The notes under the pieces were generated by a model. It made no database searches, was not told where the DNA came from, and saw only the letters and a program-made list of their open reading frames with translations. Shown one piece after another: positions 13,398 to 40,664 of a stretch of 45,226 bases of DNA; position 1 is the stretch's first letter, and each line of letters starts with the position of its first letter. The stretch is from a virus. The position numbers and the translations under genes are program-made. The stretch covers positions 1-45,226 of IMG/VR virus record IMGVR_UViG_3300018080_000267; one strand, written 5' to 3'.

Positions 13398-15860
13398 TTA
13401 CAATATACCAACGCCAATCTTAATATAAATCCAATTAACTGGATACACCGGCTGTACTTGCACTGTAATATTCCACTGTCTGGGCTCAACTTTATCTCTA
13501 ACAACCTTTAGATCTGAGTATGAAGTTATCAATCTTTGAGTAATAAATGCCTGCATTACTCTGTTGGCCCGCGCAATTAACGTCCCTTGGAACGTAGGTG
13601 ATTCTGGTTGTCCTGGGAATCCTGCAAATGCAGCTCTCATGCTCTTAGAAATACGATCTCTAATAAACACAATGCTGATTTCTTCTTCCTCAGCATAACC
13701 ACTTTGTGTAGTGGTCTTACCCCAAATAACGGTTCCACCACCTATAGCAGGCTGGAGCACCGTAATACCAGCAACTGCCAAATTCTCCAATATAATTGGT
13801 CTGAACAGCTTATCCCTAAGTATGGTAAATCCAGCAAGCACCTTATTAGTTAGCGGTACAGCTACATTTGGAATAGCAGACAAATATCCAGCAGCAGCCG
13901 CGGCTATAAAGAAGCCATCCACAAGTGTCCTATCCGCACCAATCTGAACAACAATCTCATCAGGATAGAAATATACCACCCTGTAGGTACCACCAAACGA
14001 ATTTGGTATACCATAATCTGTCAAGTCTTCCACATTACCAGCTAGAATTTCTGAAATATCATCTCCTTGAATTCCCTCAAGTATACCAATATCCTCTACT
14101 GCAGCTGGTTCAGTTCCAATTACATTTTCTGGCTCTAAGCCCTGGATTGCTCCTATGAATAATACACGTTCTTTCTTATTCTTGATATTACTCATAGTTT
14201 CACAATGAATTCTAGCGGCTTGGAAAATAGCACTGATAGTTTGTGACGGCAAAGGAACAACAATATCGCATTCAATCAATTCCAAAGCCTCCAACGCACT
14301 TTGCCATCCTACATCAAAGAAGTCGGCGTCTTTGGTATCTACAACAGTTGCTCGTAAACTTTGCCCAGCACTTAATGCCAAATCATCTGTAAATAAAATT
14401 CTAGCACTACTATCAGATGAATCAAGCACCCTAAATTCTGCCCCAGTTTCATTAACAAAACCACCAGCATTAGAGATAGTTACAACGCCACCAGAAACAC
14501 CTGTAATAGCATATTCCCCAGCATTAGCGGCAGGAGCTAAAATCTTAACTGTTCTAGTACCACTAAGATCGTCTAAATCAAACTCAACTGTAGTGCTGCT
14601 AAGAGTCGCTGTCGTAGGTCCAGTAGATGTAATAACACCATCATCACCTTCCTTAGGCACAGAATCTTCCATAACTACTGTGTATGAATAAGTATAACCG
14701 GCACCAAATATGAACAAAGTTGGCGCGGCGGTAATTGCGGGATCATAAAAGTCTACTTTATTAGGAAGAATCTGTGTTTCTGTACCAGTAATAGGATCTG
14801 TAACAAAGAAGTTAATATTTGCATCCACATCAGGTGTTATACCTACTGGCAACGCAAATGTTAGATCATCCTGTGTTGCCCCACCAGAAGCCGATTCCTC
14901 TAAAGTATAAGATACTCTACGTGGAACACTTGGTGCCGCCTGAATACAATAAACGCCAGGGGGATTATTCGCAAAAGCCAATTGAGAACCAAGAGTTATT
15001 CTATTTTCCAAACTAGCCTGGCCATGCTTTTCAGCAATATCGTCAATATCGGTAAAGAACTCCGGATCATTCAGCTCGATTTCAGCAATATAAGTGGCCA
15101 CCAAAGAATCGCCAGCAGTTAAAGCGCCACTCTCTACCTCTACAGTAAATGTATCTCCCTCACGGAATGCAGTTGTACCCTCACTAATTGAGAAGGTTAA
15201 AATCCCATTAGTATTTGTCGTACCATTAGATTGCCAGAAAATCTGATTACCATAACCATCTAATATGTTCCCGCTAACTGAACCGGTAGCAAGGAATTTA
15301 GCATATCCGTCAATTGGGTTTCCATAACCATCACGAACAACAGAAGAGCATCTTATTGTCCAAGTTTCAGATGGAGCATTCTGATCGGACAATGTTAATC
15401 CGTTAATAGTACCGTTACCAACATTTGCTGTACTAGCGCTATAATAAGAACCGCCCTGATCTACCAAATGAGCAGTTTGAAGCTCAATATAACCCAAATT
15501 AATGTCTATGCGATAATCATAGGTATTACTAAAAGTTGTTCCAGCAGTAGCAAATCCAGCCTGTTCCAACCCAACTAGTGGTATTCCATTTTTATATAAT
15601 GTTGTGCGTCTAGCAATTACAGGCGGATAAGTTAGCTTAAAATGCCGTCCATCACTACCAGATGTGCTCGTGAAAGTTGGATTTAGGCCATCACTTCCAC
15701 CACCAACAGCCGAATTTATTAAGCGTTCTACTCGCTCACCTTCACCAACTATTGCGGCTATTCTAAGACCACCCGGTACCGAAACACCGTTAGAAATAGT
15801 TTCAGTTTCAGAATAAACTCCTGGAAGTGCGTTTGTTGCTCCTGGAAAGTTTGCGCTCAT
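13398..15860 (-). CDS. Contractile tail sheath protein
   Basis: At 820 residues this is a long version of the sheath subunit, which forms the outer contractile tube and drives the inner tube through the cell envelope. The N-terminus has the typical sheath opening ALPGVYSETETISNGVSVPG, and the next strand (LRIAAIVGEGERVE) is the usual 'VGxAxxG' type. The C-terminal ~150 residues carry a sheath-like core (VIWGKTTTQSGYAEEEEISI, then IRDRISKSMRAAFAG), and the final strands are WNITVQVQPVYPVNWIYIKI. About 350 residues of beta-rich sequence between the two are inserted decoration domains. SD AGAGGA lies before the ATG. Its presence defines the virion as a myovirus. Confidence 0.88.
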   Translation of the reverse strand: MSANFPGATNALPGVYSETETISNGVSVPGGLRIAAIVGEGERVERLINSAVGGGSDGLNPTFTSTSGSDGRHFKLTYPPVIARRTTLYKNGIPLVGLEQAGFATAGTTFSNTYDYRIDINLGYIELQTAHLVDQGGSYYSASTANVGNGTINGLTLSDQNAPSETWTIRCSSVVRDGYGNPIDGYAKFLATGSVSGNILDGYGNQIFWQSNGTTNTNGILTFSISEGTTAFREGDTFTVEVESGALTAGDSLVATYIAEIELNDPEFFTDIDDIAEKHGQASLENRITLGSQLAFANNPPGVYCIQAAPSVPRRVSYTLEESASGGATQDDLTFALPVGITPDVDANINFFVTDPITGTETQILPNKVDFYDPAITAAPTLFIFGAGYTYSYTVVMEDSVPKEGDDGVITSTGPTTATLSSTTVEFDLDDLSGTRTVKILAPAANAGEYAITGVSGGVVTISNAGGFVNETGAEFRVLDSSDSSARILFTDDLALSAGQSLRATVVDTKDADFFDVGWQSALEALELIECDIVVPLPSQTISAIFQAARIHCETMSNIKNKKERVLFIGAIQGLEPENVIGTEPAAVEDIGILEGIQGDDISEILAGNVEDLTDYGIPNSFGGTYRVVYFYPDEIVVQIGADRTLVDGFFIAAAAAGYLSAIPNVAVPLTNKVLAGFTILRDKLFRPIILENLAVAGITVLQPAIGGGTVIWGKTTTQSGYAEEEEISIVFIRDRISKSMRAAFAGFPGQPESPTFQGTLIARANRVMQAFITQRLITSYSDLKVVRDKVEPRQWNITVQVQPVYPVNWIYIKIGVGIL

Positions 15861-28976: not shown

Positions 28977-30101
28977 CTATTTGCACCATCTCTTAAATAC
29001 AAAAATTCCCAAACTTACAAATAATATTATAAACAAAAAATCAATTAACGTAAAATTACTATTACTACAGCTCGTATCACAATTACAACCATCCTTTGAA
29101 TAATCCGTCGCTGGCATATCTGACTCCACTGAACTATCTGTATCTTCGGCATCTGGACATGTAGGACAAGTTCCAGCATCGCAAGGGTCACAAGAGTCAC
29201 AAGGTTCACAATCTTCGCACGGATCACACGGATCACATGAATTTTCTGAAACTTCCTGTTTCATTTCTTCATAAGCCCAATCAATCCATTGCAAATAAGA
29301 CCCCGGAATAGTATAAACAGCACCATGACCACAAGCTGCTACAGTAGGTGCCCTAGATGTGACCCCAGTTACATATACTTTATCATTATGAATTACATAA
29401 GCTGGCCCACCACTATCACCATAGCACGCATTTCCAGCATCTGGATTTTCACTTTCATCTTCTCCTAAAATCATCTCGTATTCACCACGCCAAGTTACAG
29501 GAACATCAACCGCGTATAACTCTCCTCCAGCAACATCTTTTTCATGTCGTCCATAACCAGCAATTGTCACAATATCCCCCACACTTATATTGTCGTTATA
29601 TTCTGATGGTGATAAAATTGGAACAAACACTATATTTGAAGGAGATGGAGAATTATCAACCAATAAAAGAGCTATATCATTATAATTGTCTCCAGCAGTA
29701 CCAGGATCAATTTCTTCGTCTAATTCTTGATCTTGTGGAGTTTCACCATAATACGAATCTTCGGCTTTCATTTTAGCTAAAACGGGAAAAAATGTACTAT
29801 AATCTGCTTCTCCTGGTTTTTCATAACCATACGCTATAGACATAATACTTGGGCTATAATTAACACAATGCGCAGCCGTCAACACTAGATCTGGCCTTAT
29901 AAGAGTTCCAGTACAATTTGGTGTCGATACATTTCCAAGCATTAAAGCAACAATAGATGGATATTCTGAATGTAAAGCTGGCGCCCCATTGATGATTGGC
30001 CCTTGATTCATAGACAAATTTTCTGACGCAGATCCCGCATTATATCCACACCCTATACAAAACAATAAGGCAGCCAACAAATATAAAAATTTATTACTCA
30101 T
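28977..30101 (-). CDS. Lipoprotein/membrane-anchored trypsin-like serine protease (S1 family)
   Basis: The ATG at 30101 (MSNKFLYLLAALLFCIGC) was chosen because SD GGAAGAA lies 5 nt before it; an ATG 24 nt further upstream has none. The 374-residue product opens with a signal peptide and lipobox-like CIGC (Cys18). The trypsin domain follows: mature start near PIINGAPA, catalytic His in LTAAHC, Asp in YNDIALL and Ser in CYGDSGGPAY. All three catalytic residues are present. A linker with repeated Cys pairs (about residues 289-318) leads to a second Cys group (GCNCDTSC), a transmembrane helix (FLFIILFVSLGIFVF) and basic KRWCK. The end resembles bacterial sorting signals of the MYXO-CTERM type. 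Such a protease is unusual in a phage and is probably host-derived. Confidence 0.82.
   Translation of the reverse strand: MSNKFLYLLAALLFCIGCGYNAGSASENLSMNQGPIINGAPALHSEYPSIVALMLGNVSTPNCTGTLIRPDLVLTAAHCVNYSPSIMSIAYGYEKPGEADYSTFFPVLAKMKAEDSYYGETPQDQELDEEIDPGTAGDNYNDIALLLVDNSPSPSNIVFVPILSPSEYNDNISVGDIVTIAGYGRHEKDVAGGELYAVDVPVTWRGEYEMILGEDESENPDAGNACYGDSGGPAYVIHNDKVYVTGVTSRAPTVAACGHGAVYTIPGSYLQWIDWAYEEMKQEVSENSCDPCDPCEDCEPCDSCDPCDAGTCPTCPDAEDTDSSVESDMPATDYSKDGCNCDTSCSNSNFTLIDFLFIILFVSLGIFVFKRWCK
29157..29238 (-). repeat. Degenerate tandem repeat encoding Cys-x-x-Cys units
   Basis: The coding strand repeats units like TGTGATCCG and TGTGACTCT, giving the peptide pattern C-D-P-C-D-P-C-E-D-C-E-P-C-D-S-C-D-P-C. 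It is the flexible linker between the protease domain and the membrane anchor, and likely varies in length between relatives by slippage. Confidence 0.7.
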
Positions 30102-30384
30102 TATTTCTTCCACAAAGCTCATCACAAAAAGCTCGTCTATTATCTGAATTAATAACTAATTGGTTAAGCTTTTCCTTGTCATCTCCCTCCATACAACCAT
30201 AACATCTTTTTAAATCAGCAATTCCTATGCGCCAATATATATCATTAGTTAAGCACATAAACCCTATTTGCAATTTACTGGGATTATCTCCTAGAACTAT
30301 ATTGGCATTCGGCGTCTTCTCAACATATTCATTCAACGATTCCAATAAATCTTCCCAATTATTAAAAACTTTCTCATCTGACAT
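30094..30384 (-). CDS. Small Cys-containing protein of unknown function
   Basis: A 96-residue protein that starts the transcription unit after the terminator near 30550, with a strong SD (GAGGAAG) before the ATG. The C-terminal half holds five cysteines in the pattern C-Y-G-C ... C-D-E-L-C (residues ~62-92), which may bind a metal or form disulfides. No family is recognised. Its end overlaps the protease start by 8 nt, so the two genes are probably translationally coupled. A role linked to the protease (for example an inhibitor or partner) is a speculation from this coupling. Confidence 0.65.
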   Translation of the reverse strand: MSDEKVFNNWEDLLESLNEYVEKTPNANIVLGDNPSKLQIGFMCLTNDIYWRIGIADLKRCYGCMEGDDKEKLNQLVINSDNRRAFCDELCGRNNE

Positions 30385-30545: not shown

Positions 30546-30596
30546 AAAAAAAAGCCCGATAACAAAAAGTATAATGATTTAGTATATTTGTCGGGC
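30546..30596 (-). terminator. Rho-independent terminator after the neck protein gene
   Basis: On the minus strand a GCCCGA/TCGGGC stem, extended by CAAA/TTTG, closes a ~31-nt AT-rich loop and is followed by eight T. The stem overlaps the last codons of the gene 30579-31481. The following 190 nt (30385-30545) hold no credible gene. Confidence 0.65.
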
Positions 30597-31481
30597 GCGA
30601 AGGAATCGCATTCGAGCTATAGCAGGATACCTTGCAGTACTTATCGTTAATGTTCCAAGACCAATTGGTGACGGTTTCATGTTAAACTTAATTAATTTTA
30701 CTTTTTCAAAGTGATGAGTTAACAAAGTGCTCCATCTTGAATTCATTAGTTCCGCAACACTTGGTGGATTAAAATTAATACCCTGATCTGTAAGTTGAAA
30801 CTCTCTACCTCGCTCTAATAACATTTTACTAGACAAGGCTAATAACTCGGCTCCCTCAACTATTACATCATGAAACTGCTGAAGAATTTCCGTATCTTCA
30901 AAGGTAAAAAGCGTCCAATGTGGTATCTCATTAAACATAGTTAGCGAATTACCAAGAAATGATACTAAATTATCAACGCCATATATATCACAATCTACAT
31001 AGACGTCATTGCCCCACTCATCGGTAGTATTTACTTTACCACGAGAATCTAATCTGGCACGCAAAGATTTCAATAACACATTAATATTATGAATTGCCAA
31101 CTGACTATAACAAAAGCCAGGATCATCTCCAAGGTGCTCATATCCATCAGTATTTACCGCCGGCATCATGGTATTCTGAACTACAAAATTAAACGCACCA
31201 GATACTCTAAAACCATTCAGCGTACCATCCCAAATATCATTCCAAACACCTATACAAGCATTCCAACCAACTGGGAAATCATAACCATACAACCCAATGC
31301 CCGAGCGATAAACGCCTAAATTTGTAGGACCGACAACAACATTTCCACTTGGTTCTTCAATAGTTATAGTAGGAAGAGCATCTAGATCTGCGGGATTACC
31401 ATCTGGTCCTCGAAATTGGGCCTGTAGCCTAATTGTCTCCGTATGACCTACAGTTTCTCCGCGTGTCCTGTAAATAACCAT
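30579..31481 (-). CDS. Conserved virion/neck protein (300 aa)
   Basis: The N-terminal ~100 residues are a beta-sandwich (ETIRLQAQFRGPDGNPADLD, TITIEEPSGNVVV, YGYDFPVG) like those of immunoglobulin-type phage structural domains. The C-terminal two thirds are helical, with long helices (LFTFEDTEILQQFHDVIVEG, LLALSSKMLLERGREFQLTD) and an Arg-rich end (RMRFLRARQIY). I recall homologues in several large environmental myoviruses beside the shorter beta-sandwich protein found here just upstream. A connector, neck or portal-side role is plausible but not shown. SD AGAGGT precedes the start. The gene ends inside a strong terminator. Confidence 0.55.
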   Translation of the reverse strand: MVIYRTRGETVGHTETIRLQAQFRGPDGNPADLDALPTITIEEPSGNVVVGPTNLGVYRSGIGLYGYDFPVGWNACIGVWNDIWDGTLNGFRVSGAFNFVVQNTMMPAVNTDGYEHLGDDPGFCYSQLAIHNINVLLKSLRARLDSRGKVNTTDEWGNDVYVDCDIYGVDNLVSFLGNSLTMFNEIPHWTLFTFEDTEILQQFHDVIVEGAELLALSSKMLLERGREFQLTDQGINFNPPSVAELMNSRWSTLLTHHFEKVKLIKFNMKPSPIGLGTLTISTARYPAIARMRFLRARQIY

Positions 31482-31906: not shown

Positions 31907-32287
31907 CTAATCTTCCTTATCAAAAAGAACCGACATCTCATCCGCATATTCTTCATCGGAAAATTCTAATTCCTCAAATTTAGGATCCACAACCTTAACA
32001 ACACTTCTTAATTTTGTTTGTATTGGCTGCTGTGATAATTCCTTCATTGGGGACGTTGGAAACTCTGGCTGATTATCACAAACCCTAATACGATCACGCT
32101 TTTTATGCAATGATCCAGACTCCTTAGATTTTTCCAATTGCTTTAAAGTATAAGAAAAATGTTTTTTATCTAGCAAGTTAAAAGATCTACCAGCCGGAAC
32201 TGTTAATCCCAAATCAGACAAACACACATTCATCTTAGATATATTAACTATCCAAAATGATTGATTTTTTTTATCAACGGCTTTCAT
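31907..32287 (-). CDS. Conserved phage protein of unknown function (126 aa)
   Basis: Residues 10-55 form a compact beta motif (SFWIVNISKMNVCLSDLGLT, VPAGRSFNLLDKKHFSYTL) that I recall from neck-region proteins of other large phages. The second half is basic, then acidic (FEELEFSDEEYADE), and likely disordered. Its ATG overlaps the cold-shock gene stop by 4 nt (ATGA), so the two are probably translationally coupled. It leads into the two Ig-like/neck genes. No biochemical function can be given. Confidence 0.55.
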   Translation of the reverse strand: MKAVDKKNQSFWIVNISKMNVCLSDLGLTVPAGRSFNLLDKKHFSYTLKQLEKSKESGSLHKKRDRIRVCDNQPEFPTSPMKELSQQPIQTKLRSVVKVVDPKFEELEFSDEEYADEMSVLFDKED

Positions 32288-32517
32288 TTATCAATTACGG
32301 TAACTTCCGTTGCCTTATCTTTACCGGCGTTATTTTTACCAATTGTAAATGATACTTTTTGTCCAGCTTTTAACAGTTTAAATCCTGGCATATTAATATC
32401 AGAATAATGAACAAAGATATCAGACAACGGTTCACCATTTTCATCAACGCGATTAATAAATCCGTAACCGGCCTTAATATCAAACCAATCTACTTCTCCA
32501 AAATACACTTTATCCAT
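32284..32517 (-). CDS. Cold-shock domain protein (CspA family)
   Basis: A 77-residue protein that is essentially one cold-shock domain. The opening VYFGEVDWFDIKAGYGFINR holds the RNP1 motif (AGYGFI, residues 16-21). RNP2 (DIFVHYSDI) is at about residues 33-40, and the last strands read GQKVSFTIGKNNAGKDKATE. These bind single-stranded nucleic acid through aromatic residues, and here the Trp, Phe and Tyr sites are retained. The usual Lys in RNP1 (KGYGFI) is replaced by Ala. Cold-shock proteins act as RNA chaperones; a phage copy could help phage mRNA translation or block host regulation. SD is weak (AAAG). Confidence 0.88.
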   Translation of the reverse strand: MDKVYFGEVDWFDIKAGYGFINRVDENGEPLSDIFVHYSDINMPGFKLLKAGQKVSFTIGKNNAGKDKATEVTVIDK

Positions 32518-32567: not shown

Positions 32568-32837
32568 TTATGCATTATTTTTTGCACCAGATTCGTCAGG
32601 TAAAACCTCTTTTCCACCAACAGTCAACCCACCAACACAACCTAGTACTCTATAAATCTCTACAATTCCCATCGTAGAAATATGTTTTCTTTCCTCTTCG
32701 TTAGAGCACTTTCTTAATAATTTATCATACTTATCAAATACCTGCATTATCTCTATTTCACATCCCATACGCCGAGCTGTAGCTAATATTCCTTTTCTTG
32801 TTGCTTGCTCAGTTTTACACTTTTCGTTATTATTCAT
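32568..32837 (-). CDS. Small unknown protein (89 aa)
   Basis: No family is recognised. The protein is helical in its first 65 residues (RKGILATARRMGCEIEIMQV, EEERKHISTMGIVEIYRVLG), followed by a Gly-rich loop (CVGGLTVGG). Its ATG overlaps the HNH nuclease frame by 8 nt with SD GAGGAAG, which suggests that the two are expressed together. It could be an accessory or immunity-like partner of the nuclease, but there is no direct evidence. Confidence 0.6.
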   Translation of the reverse strand: MNNNEKCKTEQATRKGILATARRMGCEIEIMQVFDKYDKLLRKCSNEEERKHISTMGIVEIYRVLGCVGGLTVGGKEVLPDESGAKNNA

Positions 32838-33162: not shown

Positions 33163-34245
33163 TTATAATATTTTTCTTAGCTTATTGATAAAATATTCTA
33201 CATCATGAGACCTATATTCGCCCCAATGACTAATTCTTAAATAATCCTGACCATCACTAGGTCTCCCCAAAGCTTCCATTAAAGGAGACCCGCCGGAATA
33301 TAAAGAACCACAAGCGCTTCCCAGCCCACAATATATCCCGTCATTTCCAAGTAAATTCAATAATCTAAATGCATCTCCATCTTTTGGTGTCTTAGCATAT
33401 GTTGTATTAGGACAACGATTTGCATTTTCTCCAATAATATCAAATCCTAATGTTTTTAATTCTGGCTCTAATACATCTCTAAACTCAATCATATTCGCGT
33501 AACGCTCATCAAAAGTATTTATTGCTTCTTCTAACGCCACCGCAGAAGATGCTATGCCTGCTGTATTAGGTGTTCCAGAAATATCTCTAAAATACCTTGA
33601 ACCTACTCCAAACTCTCTCCAAACACTAGAATCTGATAAATACATAAATCCAACACCACCAGGACCACCAAACTTGTGCGCTCCAAACACAGCTATGTCT
33701 GGATTTAACTTGCTTATATCCACTTTAATCTTTCCCAATGATTGAGACATATCCGTAAAAATATAATTATCATTTGTACTATTTATATTTTGAATTGTTC
33801 CGATTTCATTTTGCATATGAATACATACAATATTTTTGGCACTTTCAAATAATACCTCGCCATCAGAGTTTACTTTCAGCTTTTTTATAAGTACCGAGTC
33901 AAACGCTGCATCTACAGCCGTATTTATAGCGGGATGTTCTATAGGAGATATAAAAACCTCATCATCCCCAGACATACGTACCATATGAGCTAATAATTGC
34001 GCCCCCCATTCACAAGCCTGGGTACATCCACTAGTAAAAACAATTTGATTAGGATCTTTCGCATTAATCAATTTAGCTATTTTAGATCTTGCCTCTTCAA
34101 TAGCGTTTTGTGCAGCACGACCAGTCGCTGACGGAGATAACGGATGTCCATGACCAGCAATAGAATCATTAAACTTATGATAAAAATCCATTACATGATG
34201 ACTCATTGGTAAATGAGCGTTAGCATCTAAAAATAATTCTTTCAT
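33163..34245 (-). CDS. Cysteine desulfurase (NifS/IscS-type, PLP-dependent)
   Basis: The 360-residue enzyme would take sulfur from L-cysteine as a persulfide and pass it to an acceptor. All key residues are readable: the N-terminal FLDANAH, the PLP-stacking His104 (SPIEHPA), Asn146 in NEIGT, Asp165 and Gln168 (TDMSQS), the PLP lysine Lys191 in GAHKFGGPGGVGF, and the SGTPNTAG substrate loop. The active-site Cys312 is in GLGSACGS, and an Arg lies in LRISHWG. The sequence therefore looks active. It is placed among fibre and neck genes and next to an HNH protein. No scaffold protein or sulfur-modification genes are visible here. Possible uses are Fe-S cluster supply, tRNA thiolation or DNA phosphorothioation. 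Confidence 0.9.
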   Translation of the reverse strand: MKELFLDANAHLPMSHHVMDFYHKFNDSIAGHGHPLSPSATGRAAQNAIEEARSKIAKLINAKDPNQIVFTSGCTQACEWGAQLLAHMVRMSGDDEVFISPIEHPAINTAVDAAFDSVLIKKLKVNSDGEVLFESAKNIVCIHMQNEIGTIQNINSTNDNYIFTDMSQSLGKIKVDISKLNPDIAVFGAHKFGGPGGVGFMYLSDSSVWREFGVGSRYFRDISGTPNTAGIASSAVALEEAINTFDERYANMIEFRDVLEPELKTLGFDIIGENANRCPNTTYAKTPKDGDAFRLLNLLGNDGIYCGLGSACGSLYSGGSPLMEALGRPSDGQDYLRISHWGEYRSHDVEYFINKLRKIL

Positions 34246-35966: not shown

Positions 35967-36275
35967 TTACATTGCTGCCCAAGCCTCAACTCGAACTACT
36001 TGACCAGGAACTGTAGTCCTAAACCATATTCTGCTAATTCTTCTGTTATCAAAAAATATAGCGGCCGTAGGTGTGCCAGGAGTTAAATCACCATGCAAAG
36101 TGTTACCATTAAAACTATATTCAATAACTTCAGTTCCTTCATTTACCAGAGAAAATGAAACTTGTCCTCTAAAATTAATTGCTATATCCTCATTATTATG
36201 TGGAAAATTAGCATTATTCACAGTTACTTTTTGGAAGAAATTAAAATCTTTTCCTTGAGTGGTTGGCGGTGGCAT
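35967..36275 (-). CDS. Small virion-associated protein (102 aa)
   Basis: A 102-residue beta-rich protein. The sequence FRGQVSFSLVNEGTEVIEYS followed by FNGNTLHGDL and RRISRIWFRTTVPGQVVRVE is typical of small phage decoration or receptor-binding modules. It is first of the fibre gene set and follows a 201-nt structured intergenic region. SD GGAG precedes the ATG. No family assignment. Confidence 0.5.
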   Translation of the reverse strand: MPPPTTQGKDFNFFQKVTVNNANFPHNNEDIAINFRGQVSFSLVNEGTEVIEYSFNGNTLHGDLTPGTPTAAIFFDNRRISRIWFRTTVPGQVVRVEAWAAM

Positions 36276-36392: not shown

Positions 36393-36480
36393 CGCGGAAT
36401 GGATACCATTCCGCGGGAGGATAGGGCTATATCCTTTGAATTATCAAGAAGCTCCCGCCTTTAGGCGGGAAAGTAGTCAC
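36393..36480 (+). ncRNA. Omega-RNA / IS200-IS605 right-end-like structured element (no TnpB present)
   Basis: In the 201-nt gap after the methyltransferase gene, the plus strand has a perfect hairpin CGCGGAATGG-ATA-CCATTCCGCG (36393-36415), then GGATA...TATCC. This is followed by TTGAATTATCAAGAAGC, a stem TCCCGCC-TTTA-GGCGGGA (36453-36470) and the end AAGTAGTCAC. From memory, 'CAAGAAGC + GC-rich TTTA-loop stem + ...GTCAC' is typical of the 3' end of TnpB guide RNAs and transposon right ends. GCGGGAG (36413-36419) can also pair with CTCCCGC (36452-36458), a possible pseudoknot. It lies opposite to all genes and its end overlaps the methyltransferase stop. Alternatively it is simply a minus-strand terminator. 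Confidence 0.45.
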
Positions 36481-38582
36481 TTATTGTTTATAAACATGTA
36501 TATACTCTCATATTTTTGCATACCAGCAGATTTGCTCAAATGACTCCTTATTGTTCGCAAATAAATTTCCTCACGAACATTTCCAAATATATCTATTGCC
36601 ATATTTAACATTCTGGGGTAATTCTTAACATTCAAGCCAAACCATTTTCCAGGCTTTAACATATACTTTACATTTTCAAGCGTCTTTTTCCAATATACAT
36701 CATAAAAATAATTTTCCCCACGATTATATGCTTGAGACAAATCATCAGAATAATATTCTTGATTAAAATATGGCGGACTACTCCAATATAAATCAATAGA
36801 ATTTTCTTTATCGCAATAGTCCTCAGAACCAGACTGTATTAGTTTATAATCTTTAAAATTAAAATACCTTGCCATTTCCTCTAATTCAACCACAGTAAGA
36901 GGATCCGTTCCAATATATTTTCTACCACATGACATTGCCCCTAATAATCTAGCCCCATAACCACAAGAATAATCACCAACAACATCGCCGGGATTAGAGT
37001 ATTTTAAACATACAAATTTTGCAATAGATGGTTTGAACATAGTAATGCTAGGAACCAACCTCATACTACGCATACCTTGTATCATCATTCTGTGACTAAT
37101 ATTAAAAGTTTCGTTTACTTTAGAATGCCAATTAATAACAAGCCGATTTTTTACTAATTTCAATAAAATATTATCATCTTTCCATAATTCAACCATATTT
37201 TTTTTGCCAGGCTCGGTAGCGTGACAAAAACTCTTACAAAAATGTTTACATATACTTGTTGCTGTAGAACTATTATTAAACAATTCATTTGTTGCTATAT
37301 CCGGATTATAATCGCACAATTTCTTATAATCAGAATTTAATTTTTTATCAGGATATTCGGGATACATCCAACCTTGTTGCCTAAAATGATTAAATAGCGG
37401 TTGAACATATTTTTCCCTATCTTCTTTTGGTAGTGGTTTTATAAGCCCAGCTGTTATCGGAATACCATCTACTTCTACTATTTTTGTATATGGATTGTCA
37501 TTTTTTCTTTTTATCCTTTTTACTGTAGCAGCGCTTACATTATATTGTTTAGAAATATTTTCTATATTATTATTTTGATTTAAATTGTTTATAATATCAT
37601 GTTTAATACTTTCTGGTATATTATATTTTTTACGACCTATTTGTCTGTTTTCTTGCTGTTTTTTAAGTACAAGGTATTTACTATATTTTCTATCTAACCT
37701 TGTTTCTAATGATGAGTTTCTATATAACCAATTCATAATAAGATCCACTTTTTCATTGCCATTAGATTCCATATCAAAAGTATTATTACCAGTTTTAGAA
37801 ATACAATAAAAATTTACAATAATATTCAACTTATCTAATATTAATCTTTGTATTTTTTCACACATCTCTTCAGTAGACGTTAATGACCACTTCCACTCTT
37901 TAGTTTGCTGCCTCATAGTAATACAGCCATCACCATCAAATAACCCTCTAATAAAATGGTTGTTTAAATCTTTACGCAACCATTTTGGAAATTCTATAAT
38001 AAAACTTTTAGCCTGTGGACATCCCTTTTCTTCCAACATATCACACATATGTTTACTATACATTCTTATACAACATGTCGGATATCTATTATTGCTTAAA
38101 TATCTTTTAATGTTTTGTTTTGGCATATTAATAAAACTACAAAATTTTACTAAATGATTATAATCTTCATCCTTTAATGTTAAATGTGCCGTATTTGTTC
38201 TTTTACAATTATAGGCATCAGCATAAAGAAAACCAAGCCAATATGCTTTTTGTGGTGTGTTTATATTATCAAAAATATCTTCATTAAAAAAAGTAAATCT
38301 ATGACTTTCATTTCTATTTCTTAATATTTCTTTTTCTTTTGCCCACTTTTGTATTCTACGTTTATCAATTGAATATTTTTTTCCTAAATTTTTGGCTGAT
38401 ACACCCAGTTCATATAATTCAAGTATTTTTTCTATTTTTGAATCATTAAATTGTTCTTTTTTTATAGAATAATTGTTTTGTTTTATTGTTTTTATAATTT
38501 GTCTATGGTCTTCTTCTAAATTAATAGCTATTCTCTTAGCTGAAAATCCGTTTTCTGTCATTTCTTTTATTTTATTTTGCAT
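36477..38582 (-). CDS. HTH-LAGLIDADG homing endonuclease fused to DNA methyltransferase
   Basis: The 701-residue protein has two N-terminal helix-turn-helix-like units (about residues 1-85) and a LAGLIDADG endonuclease domain. Its two motifs are AYWLGFLYADA (113-123) and FIRGLFDGDGCI (210-221). A third HTH (about 322-361) precedes a methyltransferase domain from about 370. The methyltransferase shows the AdoMet motif GDYSCGYGARLLGA (536-549) and the catalytic SSPPYF (601-606), the N4-cytosine/N6-adenine type. The C-terminus is ordinary. It is not intein-like: no N-terminal Cys/Ser or terminal His-Asn is seen at the junction. SD AAAGGTTC precedes the ATG. Selfish endonuclease joined with a DNA-modifying enzyme is unusual; the methylated base is unknown. 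Confidence 0.82.
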   Translation of the reverse strand: MQNKIKEMTENGFSAKRIAINLEEDHRQIIKTIKQNNYSIKKEQFNDSKIEKILELYELGVSAKNLGKKYSIDKRRIQKWAKEKEILRNRNESHRFTFFNEDIFDNINTPQKAYWLGFLYADAYNCKRTNTAHLTLKDEDYNHLVKFCSFINMPKQNIKRYLSNNRYPTCCIRMYSKHMCDMLEEKGCPQAKSFIIEFPKWLRKDLNNHFIRGLFDGDGCITMRQQTKEWKWSLTSTEEMCEKIQRLILDKLNIIVNFYCISKTGNNTFDMESNGNEKVDLIMNWLYRNSSLETRLDRKYSKYLVLKKQQENRQIGRKKYNIPESIKHDIINNLNQNNNIENISKQYNVSAATVKRIKRKNDNPYTKIVEVDGIPITAGLIKPLPKEDREKYVQPLFNHFRQQGWMYPEYPDKKLNSDYKKLCDYNPDIATNELFNNSSTATSICKHFCKSFCHATEPGKKNMVELWKDDNILLKLVKNRLVINWHSKVNETFNISHRMMIQGMRSMRLVPSITMFKPSIAKFVCLKYSNPGDVVGDYSCGYGARLLGAMSCGRKYIGTDPLTVVELEEMARYFNFKDYKLIQSGSEDYCDKENSIDLYWSSPPYFNQEYYSDDLSQAYNRGENYFYDVYWKKTLENVKYMLKPGKWFGLNVKNYPRMLNMAIDIFGNVREEIYLRTIRSHLSKSAGMQKYESIYMFINNK

Positions 38583-38703: not shown

Positions 38704-39489
38704 TTATGCGCCAATTACAACGCTCTTATTACCGCGAGCGACACCGCGTGGATTCACAATTCCAAGACCAATAATTTCACTTACCACCCATCCTAATTTT
38801 AGCTGCTTAGGCTCGTCAGCGGGAAGTACCTCAATGTCCTGACGAACAGGCATCACACCAACAAACTCTGGGTCTGCACATGCGTAAACGGTACCAGCAG
38901 GAACAATCTTAGAAACAAGAATGTCTGCGCCCCAAACATGAGCATAAAGACCAGTCTGTAGAATCTCGCGCTGAGTCACAGGATCAACCTCACCACCATT
39001 AGCACCAGCACCACCGCCAGCTGCCCAGTTTAGAATATCGGTGAACTCATTGATGTTCATGAAAAACTTTGTGGTTACCAAGTCCCAACGATCTACCTGA
39101 ACCTTTAGTTCAACTAGGTCGCGCTTTAGCATTCCACCATCAGCAATATCTTGAGCAACGTTCTCGACAGTAGCAGCAGCATCTAGAGCGGCAAATACAT
39201 TTGCATCCTCTTGAGCCATAATTTCCTGCCTTGCCTTTTGAACGGCACGGTCAATCACGTTAAACCGACGTCTTTTAACTTCAGCAATACGAACGGTTGG
39301 ATTGGAGTAAAGCTCGAACTCGGGAACGGTTACACGATCACCGAATACGCGACTCTCAGGACCAGAGCCATTGCTTGAAACAACAACTGCAGCCACATCG
39401 ATATCGCGGTCATAAACTGGTAGGGCTCCTTGAGGAAGGGGATCAACCACGAGGGCACGTCTAGCAATTCCCTGATAATCAAGGTTTCG
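38704..39489 (-). CDS. Major capsid protein, exon 2 (codons 76-336)
   Basis: After splicing, the capsid frame continues as R-N-L-D-Y-Q-G-I-A-R and encodes 261 residues to a TAA. The exons join ...MANPIR to RNLDYQGIARRALVVDPLPQ, a continuous sequence I recognise as the conserved start region of an HK97-fold MCP group. Further family signatures are GALPVYDRDIDVAAVVV and SNPTVRIAEVKRRRFNVIDR. The mature protein is 336 residues. An apparent ATG at 39492 is a by-product of the intron's last bases (ATG ends the intron). Base composition is visibly less AT-rich than that of the endonuclease, consistent with a highly expressed virion gene. Followed by a strong terminator. Confidence 0.88.
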   Translation of the reverse strand, partial: RNLDYQGIARRALVVDPLPQGALPVYDRDIDVAAVVVSSNGSGPESRVFGDRVTVPEFELYSNPTVRIAEVKRRRFNVIDRAVQKARQEIMAQEDANVFAALDAAATVENVAQDIADGGMLKRDLVELKVQVDRWDLVTTKFFMNINEFTDILNWAAGGGAGANGGEVDPVTQREILQTGLYAHVWGADILVSKIVPAGTVYACADPEFVGVMPVRQDIEVLPADEPKQLKLGWVVSEIIGLGIVNPRGVARGNKSVVIGA

Positions 39490-40664
39490 CATTTGTTACA
39501 GGTCAGGGAACCTGGTTAGGTCATTTCTGCCTAACTCCTTATATTACTATAAGGGTCGGACTCTATCTTCTCCAATTTTGGAGTTTAGCATATTAGTCTC
39601 TGAGGATTCAGGCATAATTTTATATTTCATACTATCTATTACATGAGGCCTAATAATATCTGAAAGTTTTTGAGTATTTTTTTTATTTAAAGTAAGTTGA
39701 AAATATTCTTTTTCTTTAAATTTAAACCCCATAACTTTAGATCTTAAATCAAAACACCTTTTTAATAGATTTTGTAGTTTTATATTTTCTTCATATGTAA
39801 AGCCCATTGTCGCTATTCTCATATTTATTCCTGAATTTAGATTTCCGTCATCACAAATCCAAACTGCTAGTGCCAATGGAGTCATGTATATATCTAAATT
39901 GTCTGGAATATGTTTAATTCTTTGATTATCGTAAAACATGTCGGCAAATGAATTTAAGCCTTGATGACATATTGTTGCGGTCTGTAGCATTATAGAATTT
40001 TTTCTTTTATCTATATTTTCTCTCCATGCATTAACAAAAGGATCTAACATTGATATTTTCCAATGAAAATATTGTTTTTGTTTTTTGCAATGTCCAAAAG
40101 ATAGCTTATATAAAGAATTTTTGCCATCTCTATATAAACATCCATCTCCTAATAACATTCCAACTAAAATTTGTTTTTGAACATAATTTATAGGAATTGC
40201 TCTGAGATGATTATATCTTCTAGCCGAAGAGTCTGGAATTCTATTATTTGCTCTTAACAATCTTGATATAGCCGGAGCAGATATTTCGAACCATTTTGCT
40301 ATTTCTTTTATAGATTGTCCAGAATCAAACATTGATATAGCTTTTTTGACTTGATCATTTGTAAAATCAGATATGTATTTCTTCCTCCATTGGACTTTAT
40401 TTTTTAAATTTTTTCTTACATATTCATATGAAACATTATGTTTTGCAGCAATGTCTCGAATATTAAGTCCAAGTTTATATTCTTTTATTAAAACATCTAA
40501 TTTTACTGTCATGCCTGTCTTTCCTGCTGATTTTCTGTATCATTCTAACTCTGTTACTATAACGTGTTTTAAATTATCTACAGTGATTAATTTCTTGAGT
40601 GTTATAGTAGTTAGACATTCAGAGGTTCCAGCATATAGCTAAATTTTACATCCGCCGAAAATTA
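39490..40664 (-). ncRNA. Group I self-splicing intron in the major capsid gene
   Basis: The 1175-nt intron lies between exon bases ...CCTATCCGT and CGAAACC.... P1 is exon ATCCGT with intron GCGGAT, ending in the required U-G pair at the 5' splice site. P10 is intron TTTCG with exon CGAAA. The last intron base is G (omega-G). Near the 3' end the coding strand shows TCAGAGACTA (R-like, P7 5' side), the P8 hairpin CTCCAA-AA-TTGGAG (39583-39570) and AAGATAGAGTCC (S-like, P7 3' side). CAGGCAT at 40517-40511 can pair with ATGCCTG at 39615-39609, closing the loop that holds the endonuclease gene. All these elements are directly visible. Confidence 0.9.
39547..40512 (-). CDS. Intron-encoded LAGLIDADG homing endonuclease
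   Basis: The 321-residue protein has two N-terminal HTH-like segments (about residues 5-45 and 50-90: SIKEIAKWFEISAPAISRLL) and a two-motif LAGLIDADG domain: ILVGMLLGDGC (115-125) and LALAVWICDDG (213-223). Two motifs in one chain mean it can act as a monomer. It is expected to cut intron-less capsid genes at the splice junction and so spread the intron. The ATG lies inside a helix of the intron that closes the coding loop, and the C-terminal codons run through P8 and the P7 3' side up to the TAG. The gene is more AT-rich than the exons. SD CAGGAAAG precedes the ATG. Confidence 0.88.
   Translation of the reverse strand: MTVKLDVLIKEYKLGLNIRDIAAKHNVSYEYVRKNLKNKVQWRKKYISDFTNDQVKKAISMFDSGQSIKEIAKWFEISAPAISRLLRANNRIPDSSARRYNHLRAIPINYVQKQILVGMLLGDGCLYRDGKNSLYKLSFGHCKKQKQYFHWKISMLDPFVNAWRENIDKRKNSIMLQTATICHQGLNSFADMFYDNQRIKHIPDNLDIYMTPLALAVWICDDGNLNSGINMRIATMGFTYEENIKLQNLLKRCFDLRSKVMGFKFKEKEYFQLTLNKKNTQKLSDIIRPHVIDSMKYKIMPESSETNMLNSKIGEDRVRPL

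Follow-up and report, generated by a model that had tools for sequence, protein, structure and literature searches.

Does the cysteine desulfurase-like gene found among the virion genes of a jumbo-phage contig code for an active enzyme and, if so, where would its sulfur go? The window, i.e. the whole stretch of DNA that was analysed (45 kb; 45,226 nucleotides), is a single IMG/VR virus record, IMGVR_UViG_3300018080_000267. A first-pass annotation had described a complete cysteine desulfurase carried in a phage structural cluster, regarded such enzymes as uncommon phage cargo and proposed roles in Fe-S cluster or thio-tRNA supply or in phosphorothioate modification of DNA. The features of the window relevant to these questions are listed in Table 1.

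Table 1. Features of the desulfurase region, with positions in the window
Feature	Position	Strand	Evidence or remark
Tail sheath protein	13398..15860	-	phrog_2839, 8e-11
Conserved 300-aa neighbour, phrog_33358; gene used for the marker tree	30579..31481	-	Profile; neighbourhoods
Cold-shock-domain protein, conserved neighbour	32284..32517	-	NCBIfam search; neighbourhoods
Conserved 89-aa protein, function not assigned	32568..32837	-	Overlaps HNH gene by 8 bp; neighbourhoods
Small HNH protein, 109 aa	32830..33159	-	Pfam HNH, 6.6e-9; 3 bp downstream of desulfurase
Cysteine desulfurase-like PLP enzyme (NifS/IscS fold), 360 aa	33163..34245	-	ORF, profile, fold, homologues
Arg337 codon, RxS motif	33235..33237	-	Invariant in phage homologues
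Cys312 codon (TGT), predicted catalytic cysteine, GLGSACGS loop (IscS C328)	33310..33312	-	Invariant in phage homologues; alignment
Lys191 codon, predicted PLP Schiff-base lysine (IscS K206)	33673..33675	-	Invariant in phage homologues; alignment
Conserved 102-aa protein, upstream flank of the desulfurase site	35967..36275	-	Neighbourhoods
Major head protein	38704..39492	-	phrog_2522, 3e-67; 54% identical to Bacillus phage G gp27

The desulfurase ORF starts with an ATG and comprises 360 codons. Its product matches the Pfam Aminotran_5 profile over residues 5-351 (4e-38) and the NCBIfam NifS model TIGR03402 from end to end (4.4e-43); the encoded enzyme is complete. The best sequence match in the PDB is 1ecx, a NifS-like protein (2.7e-32). 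The AlphaFold model, for which 19 phage sequences were used, has a pLDDT of 88.9; Foldseek matched it to 1ecx (E 2.4e-30), and VIA-align superposed 341 of its residues on NifS/IscS structures, with a Z score of 40.5 and an rmsd of 2.3. Profiles and structural comparisons thus agree on a full-length fold-type-I aminotransferase class V domain.

In alignments, Lys191, Cys312, His104, Asp165 and Gln168 correspond to K206, C328, H104, D180 and Q183 of Escherichia coli IscS. All the catalytic positions named in the first-pass annotation are therefore present, and together with His190 and Arg337 they are invariant in the 19-20 phage homologues aligned. By analogy with IscS, Arg337 is expected to bind the substrate carboxylate. 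The alignment with IscS and SufS also showed that the cysteine loop, GLGSACGS, is of the long SGSACxS type, not of the short SufS type. Sequence, fold and conserved residues all back the identification as a cysteine desulfurase, and on these grounds the protein is predicted to be active.

With NifS and IscS of group I (1ecx and E. coli IscS), the phage enzyme has in common the full-length fold, the Lys/His/Asp/Gln/Arg/Cys set and the long GSAC loop, but sequence identity is only about 25-30%. Its NCBIfam scores fall below the curated cut-offs (147.5 bits against 530.75 for NifS and 86.3 against 643.2 for IscS), so that it does not qualify as a strict NifS or IscS equivalog. Unlike E. coli IscS, it has neither the RRKPRVR arginine patch (R220/R223/R225), which is the TusA binding site (PMC11302665), nor an IscS-type C-terminal tail. 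It thus lacks both hallmarks of the housekeeping enzyme, which argues against a simple substitute for IscS.

In a tree that comprised the phage proteins and twelve other sequences, none of them a reference DndA or SspA, the phage desulfurases form one clade (support 100/100), the stem of which has a length of 1.96 changes per site. Scans of genome contigs by pattern, which reach close relatives only, revealed no close cellular relative. The phage clade also has replacements at positions conserved in the reference proteins, including His for IscS T12 and N35 and Tyr for E236, among others, and the IscS stretch TESDN reads TQACE. Since such replacements affect otherwise conserved positions, the substrate could have changed. 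The protein might then be a class-V PLP enzyme that has kept the desulfurase fold while acting on another substrate, such as cysteine sulfinate, selenocysteine or another amino acid, or catalysing another reaction; the long stem of this single phage clade, its specific replacements and the low score with the curated model (147 bits, the cut-off being 531) are all in line with this idea. We nevertheless consider it unlikely, because the whole catalytic set is invariant, including the loop cysteine of the GSAC motif, and because NifS is closer in sequence than the selenocysteine lyases, although the latter also fit the fold.

Other NifS-like viral proteins are found in BFVD. They are virus-encoded and of the same fold class as the phage desulfurase, but their full-length matches are only 10-24% identical to it over structural alignments. 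Among the isolated phages of the phage collection there is no close relative, the tblastn matches being 23-34% identical, and Bacillus phage G is absent among them. The description of such enzymes as uncommon in phages thus holds for this clade in the isolated phages searched, but not for viral desulfurase genes at large, since in rumen viromes viral iscS is reported to be among the two auxiliary genes with the widest distribution (PMC5704599). The rumen genes are likewise cysteine desulfurase genes on viral contigs; they were listed as metabolic genes, however, whereas the present enzyme belongs to a phage-only clade fixed in a virion gene cluster. The main text of a comparison of 224 jumbo phages does not mention a desulfurase (PMC7824862). 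In the open-access literature searched we found no description of such a phage-only clade fixed in a virion gene cluster, and it appears to be new here.

The term 'structural cluster' proved apt, as the major head protein is encoded on one side of the desulfurase gene and the tail sheath protein on the other. Two LAGLIDADG-type genes (window 36477-38582 and 39547-40512) flank the major head protein gene, and in two other loci, L098 and L103, the match to the head gene is split in pieces around LAGLIDADG-type genes.

Scans of viral contigs yielded over twenty desulfurase loci, 40-67% identical, on contigs of jumbo phages that are relatives of Bacillus phage G. At every locus that covers the downstream side, the small HNH gene is the next conserved gene; in a few loci one or two genes, among them HNH_3 endonucleases, are inserted before it. 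Beyond HNH, the order is largely constant, with the 89-aa gene, the cold-shock gene and the homologues of the genes at 31907, 31531 and 30579. In four related phages devoid of the desulfurase (L147, L148, L150 and L152), the HNH gene comes immediately after the 102-aa gene; in others that lack the desulfurase, HNH is absent as well. In most of the desulfurase-lacking phages (L147-L152, L154 and L155), the homologue of the gene at 31907 has the reverse orientation, and a second small inverted gene often lies next to it. Of 15 large records reached via the head protein, three carry the desulfurase; the other two desulfurase-bearing large records in that set had been picked for having it.

In a tree of the homologues of the gene at 30579, 20 phages with the desulfurase and 12 phages without it, the latter picked for covering the region and hence not a random sample, are on two sides of one branch (support 100/99). 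One gain or one loss therefore explains the pattern. For ten neighbouring genes, pairwise distances are correlated with those between the desulfurases (r 0.47-0.76, Mantel p at most 0.003). In five pairs of homologues, omega is 0.07-0.13, with synonymous change almost saturated in the two pairs that are furthest apart, and the gene is clearly under purifying selection. Its GC and third-position GC contents (GC3) are like those of the neighbouring genes. Co-inheritance, low omega and neighbour-like composition identify an old, selected gene of the lineage rather than stray cargo. The label of cargo is thus not supported for a gene that is fixed at a constant place in a single clade of jumbo phages of the phage G type and that evolves with the virion genes.

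The same data bear on whether a bacterial gene was recently acquired or the assembly contaminated. Some database matches labelled as phage do sit in bacterial-looking sequence, as in the record of Microcystis phage MaAM05, the one tblastn match whose annotated surroundings were inspected. For the present gene, however, its recurrence at one site in contigs of many different samples, the phage-like composition, the co-inheritance and the failure of the pattern scans to find a close cellular relative refute both possibilities, which we regard as almost certainly wrong. In the MaAM05 record itself (L277, MW495066.1), sufS has acnA, icd, hemW, pgi and queG as neighbours, which resembles a bacterial chromosome, and hence that record may be contaminated.

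The place of the gene in a late virion operon and its inheritance with that operon indicate that the enzyme is probably made in quantity during particle building. It might even be packaged in the particle or attached to it, and act in assembly or early after injection. Besides the constant site in the head-tail gene cluster and the inheritance with this cluster, this idea has a precedent in the family 2A encapsulins, with a desulfurase inside an HK97-fold shell (mentioned in PMC11946847). The two cases are alike in that the desulfurase is encoded beside the gene of an HK97-fold shell. In contrast, the encapsulin cargo groups with SufS in the tree and has a long N-terminal part, whereas the phage protein is a bare group-I-like domain of 360 aa devoid of such an extension, and thus of a targeting sequence of that kind; it does not belong to the family 2A cargo enzymes. 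As a site within an operon is no evidence of packaging either, we consider a virion-associated enzyme quite unlikely.

DNA phosphorothioation also involves enzymes of this family, DndA and SspA, and the PADLOC SspA and DndA models match the phage protein (159 and 149 bits). If the enzyme were a sulfur donor of that type, the phage DNA would be modified, and the adjoining HNH gene might be seen as a further hint. The first-pass annotation had made this role dependent on partner genes elsewhere in the genome. However, PAPS_reduct genes (DndC/SspD type) were found in none of the 24 records searched, which comprised 18 desulfurase-bearing ones and included records of 435, 459 and 392 kb; 14 of 14 controls were positive. 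The phage records thus differ from DndA/SspA systems in the lack of a detectable DndC/SspD-type partner. In addition, the NCBIfam NifS model outscores that of DndA (147 vs 97 bits), and the HNH protein is a bare 109-aa domain also found in phages without the desulfurase. A role as phosphorothioate donor is therefore highly improbable. The occurrence of HNH without the desulfurase likewise led us to reject it as an obligate partner of the enzyme.

The other sulfur partners suggested in the first-pass annotation were not detected in the desulfurase-bearing records either. No MnmA scored over the cut-off in the records searched, TusA was found in none of 28 records, and IscU was absent from the desulfurase-bearing records. 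An IscU/NifU_N scaffold gene (2e-54; L111, positions 170631-171005 of the record of L085) is present in one related jumbo phage that has no desulfurase. We also searched four large desulfurase-bearing records, the fourth in part, with a panel of E. coli Isc, Suf, Csd, Thi and Moa proteins, TtcA, LipA, MiaB and BioB; besides the desulfurase itself, only radical-SAM proteins were retrieved, with the MoaA query. Radical-SAM genes occur in several large records of the group (L285, L286, L287 and L210:2584-3519). As candidate clients of the enzyme they were set aside, because they score over the cut-off in four of 14 desulfurase-bearing and two of 14 other records, with fragments in both sets, and hence show no clear link.

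The neighbouring genes contain no invariant cysteine confined to desulfurase-bearing phages, and no sulfur-related family was recognised among genes common to desulfurase-bearing phages and missing from two phages without the enzyme. Thus, unlike NifS/IscS systems, the desulfurase-bearing phage records show no isc or nif partner genes in these searches; as many records are fragments and all may be incomplete, the failure to find a partner gene does not prove that the phages lack it. These negative results point to host acceptors or to acceptors of an unknown type.

We therefore favour, as the probable explanation, an active, diverged group-I-like cysteine desulfurase that is made with the late proteins and whose sulfur goes to a host acceptor or to an unrecognised phage acceptor. 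With PLP on Lys191, the enzyme would take sulfur from L-cysteine and release L-alanine; Cys312 would carry the persulfide, and its mobile loop would pass the sulfur on. The most likely receivers would be the host machineries for Fe-S cluster formation or tRNA thiolation, or else a phage protein not recognisable by known families. A supply of sulfur for Fe-S clusters or tRNA thiolation, as proposed in the first-pass annotation, is thus possible through host partners. It is unlikely, in our opinion, that the desulfurase has become a specialised component of the late phage programme, with an acceptor specific to phages or a function in or on the particle, in a process so far undescribed for phages.

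Its status as a fixed member of the virion cluster in one lineage suggests that sulfur transfer matters for particle building. In phage lambda, loss of the TusA-MnmA thiolation branch, which starts at the host IscS, impairs infection, while loss of the IscU branch, which also starts there, helps it (PMC2900299). Given these opposite effects, we hypothesise that a phage-encoded source of sulfur could shift the balance; a phage with its own source would be a natural test of the idea drawn from the IscS branches in lambda. The present case also warns that not every viral iscS gene should be labelled as metabolic cargo.

Promoter-like sites are no more frequent in the region than in shuffled sequences. 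A putative programmed frameshift at positions 30094-30125 of the window was not convincing on reading and was discarded. The window also codes for a 382-aa protein (28977-30125) that matches the PADLOC LmuA model (9.7e-9), though its gene is located among virion genes. Finally, three large records of the group have in common a beta-barrel protein of the Ku type (Pfam Ku, 2e-39; L238:1812-2744).
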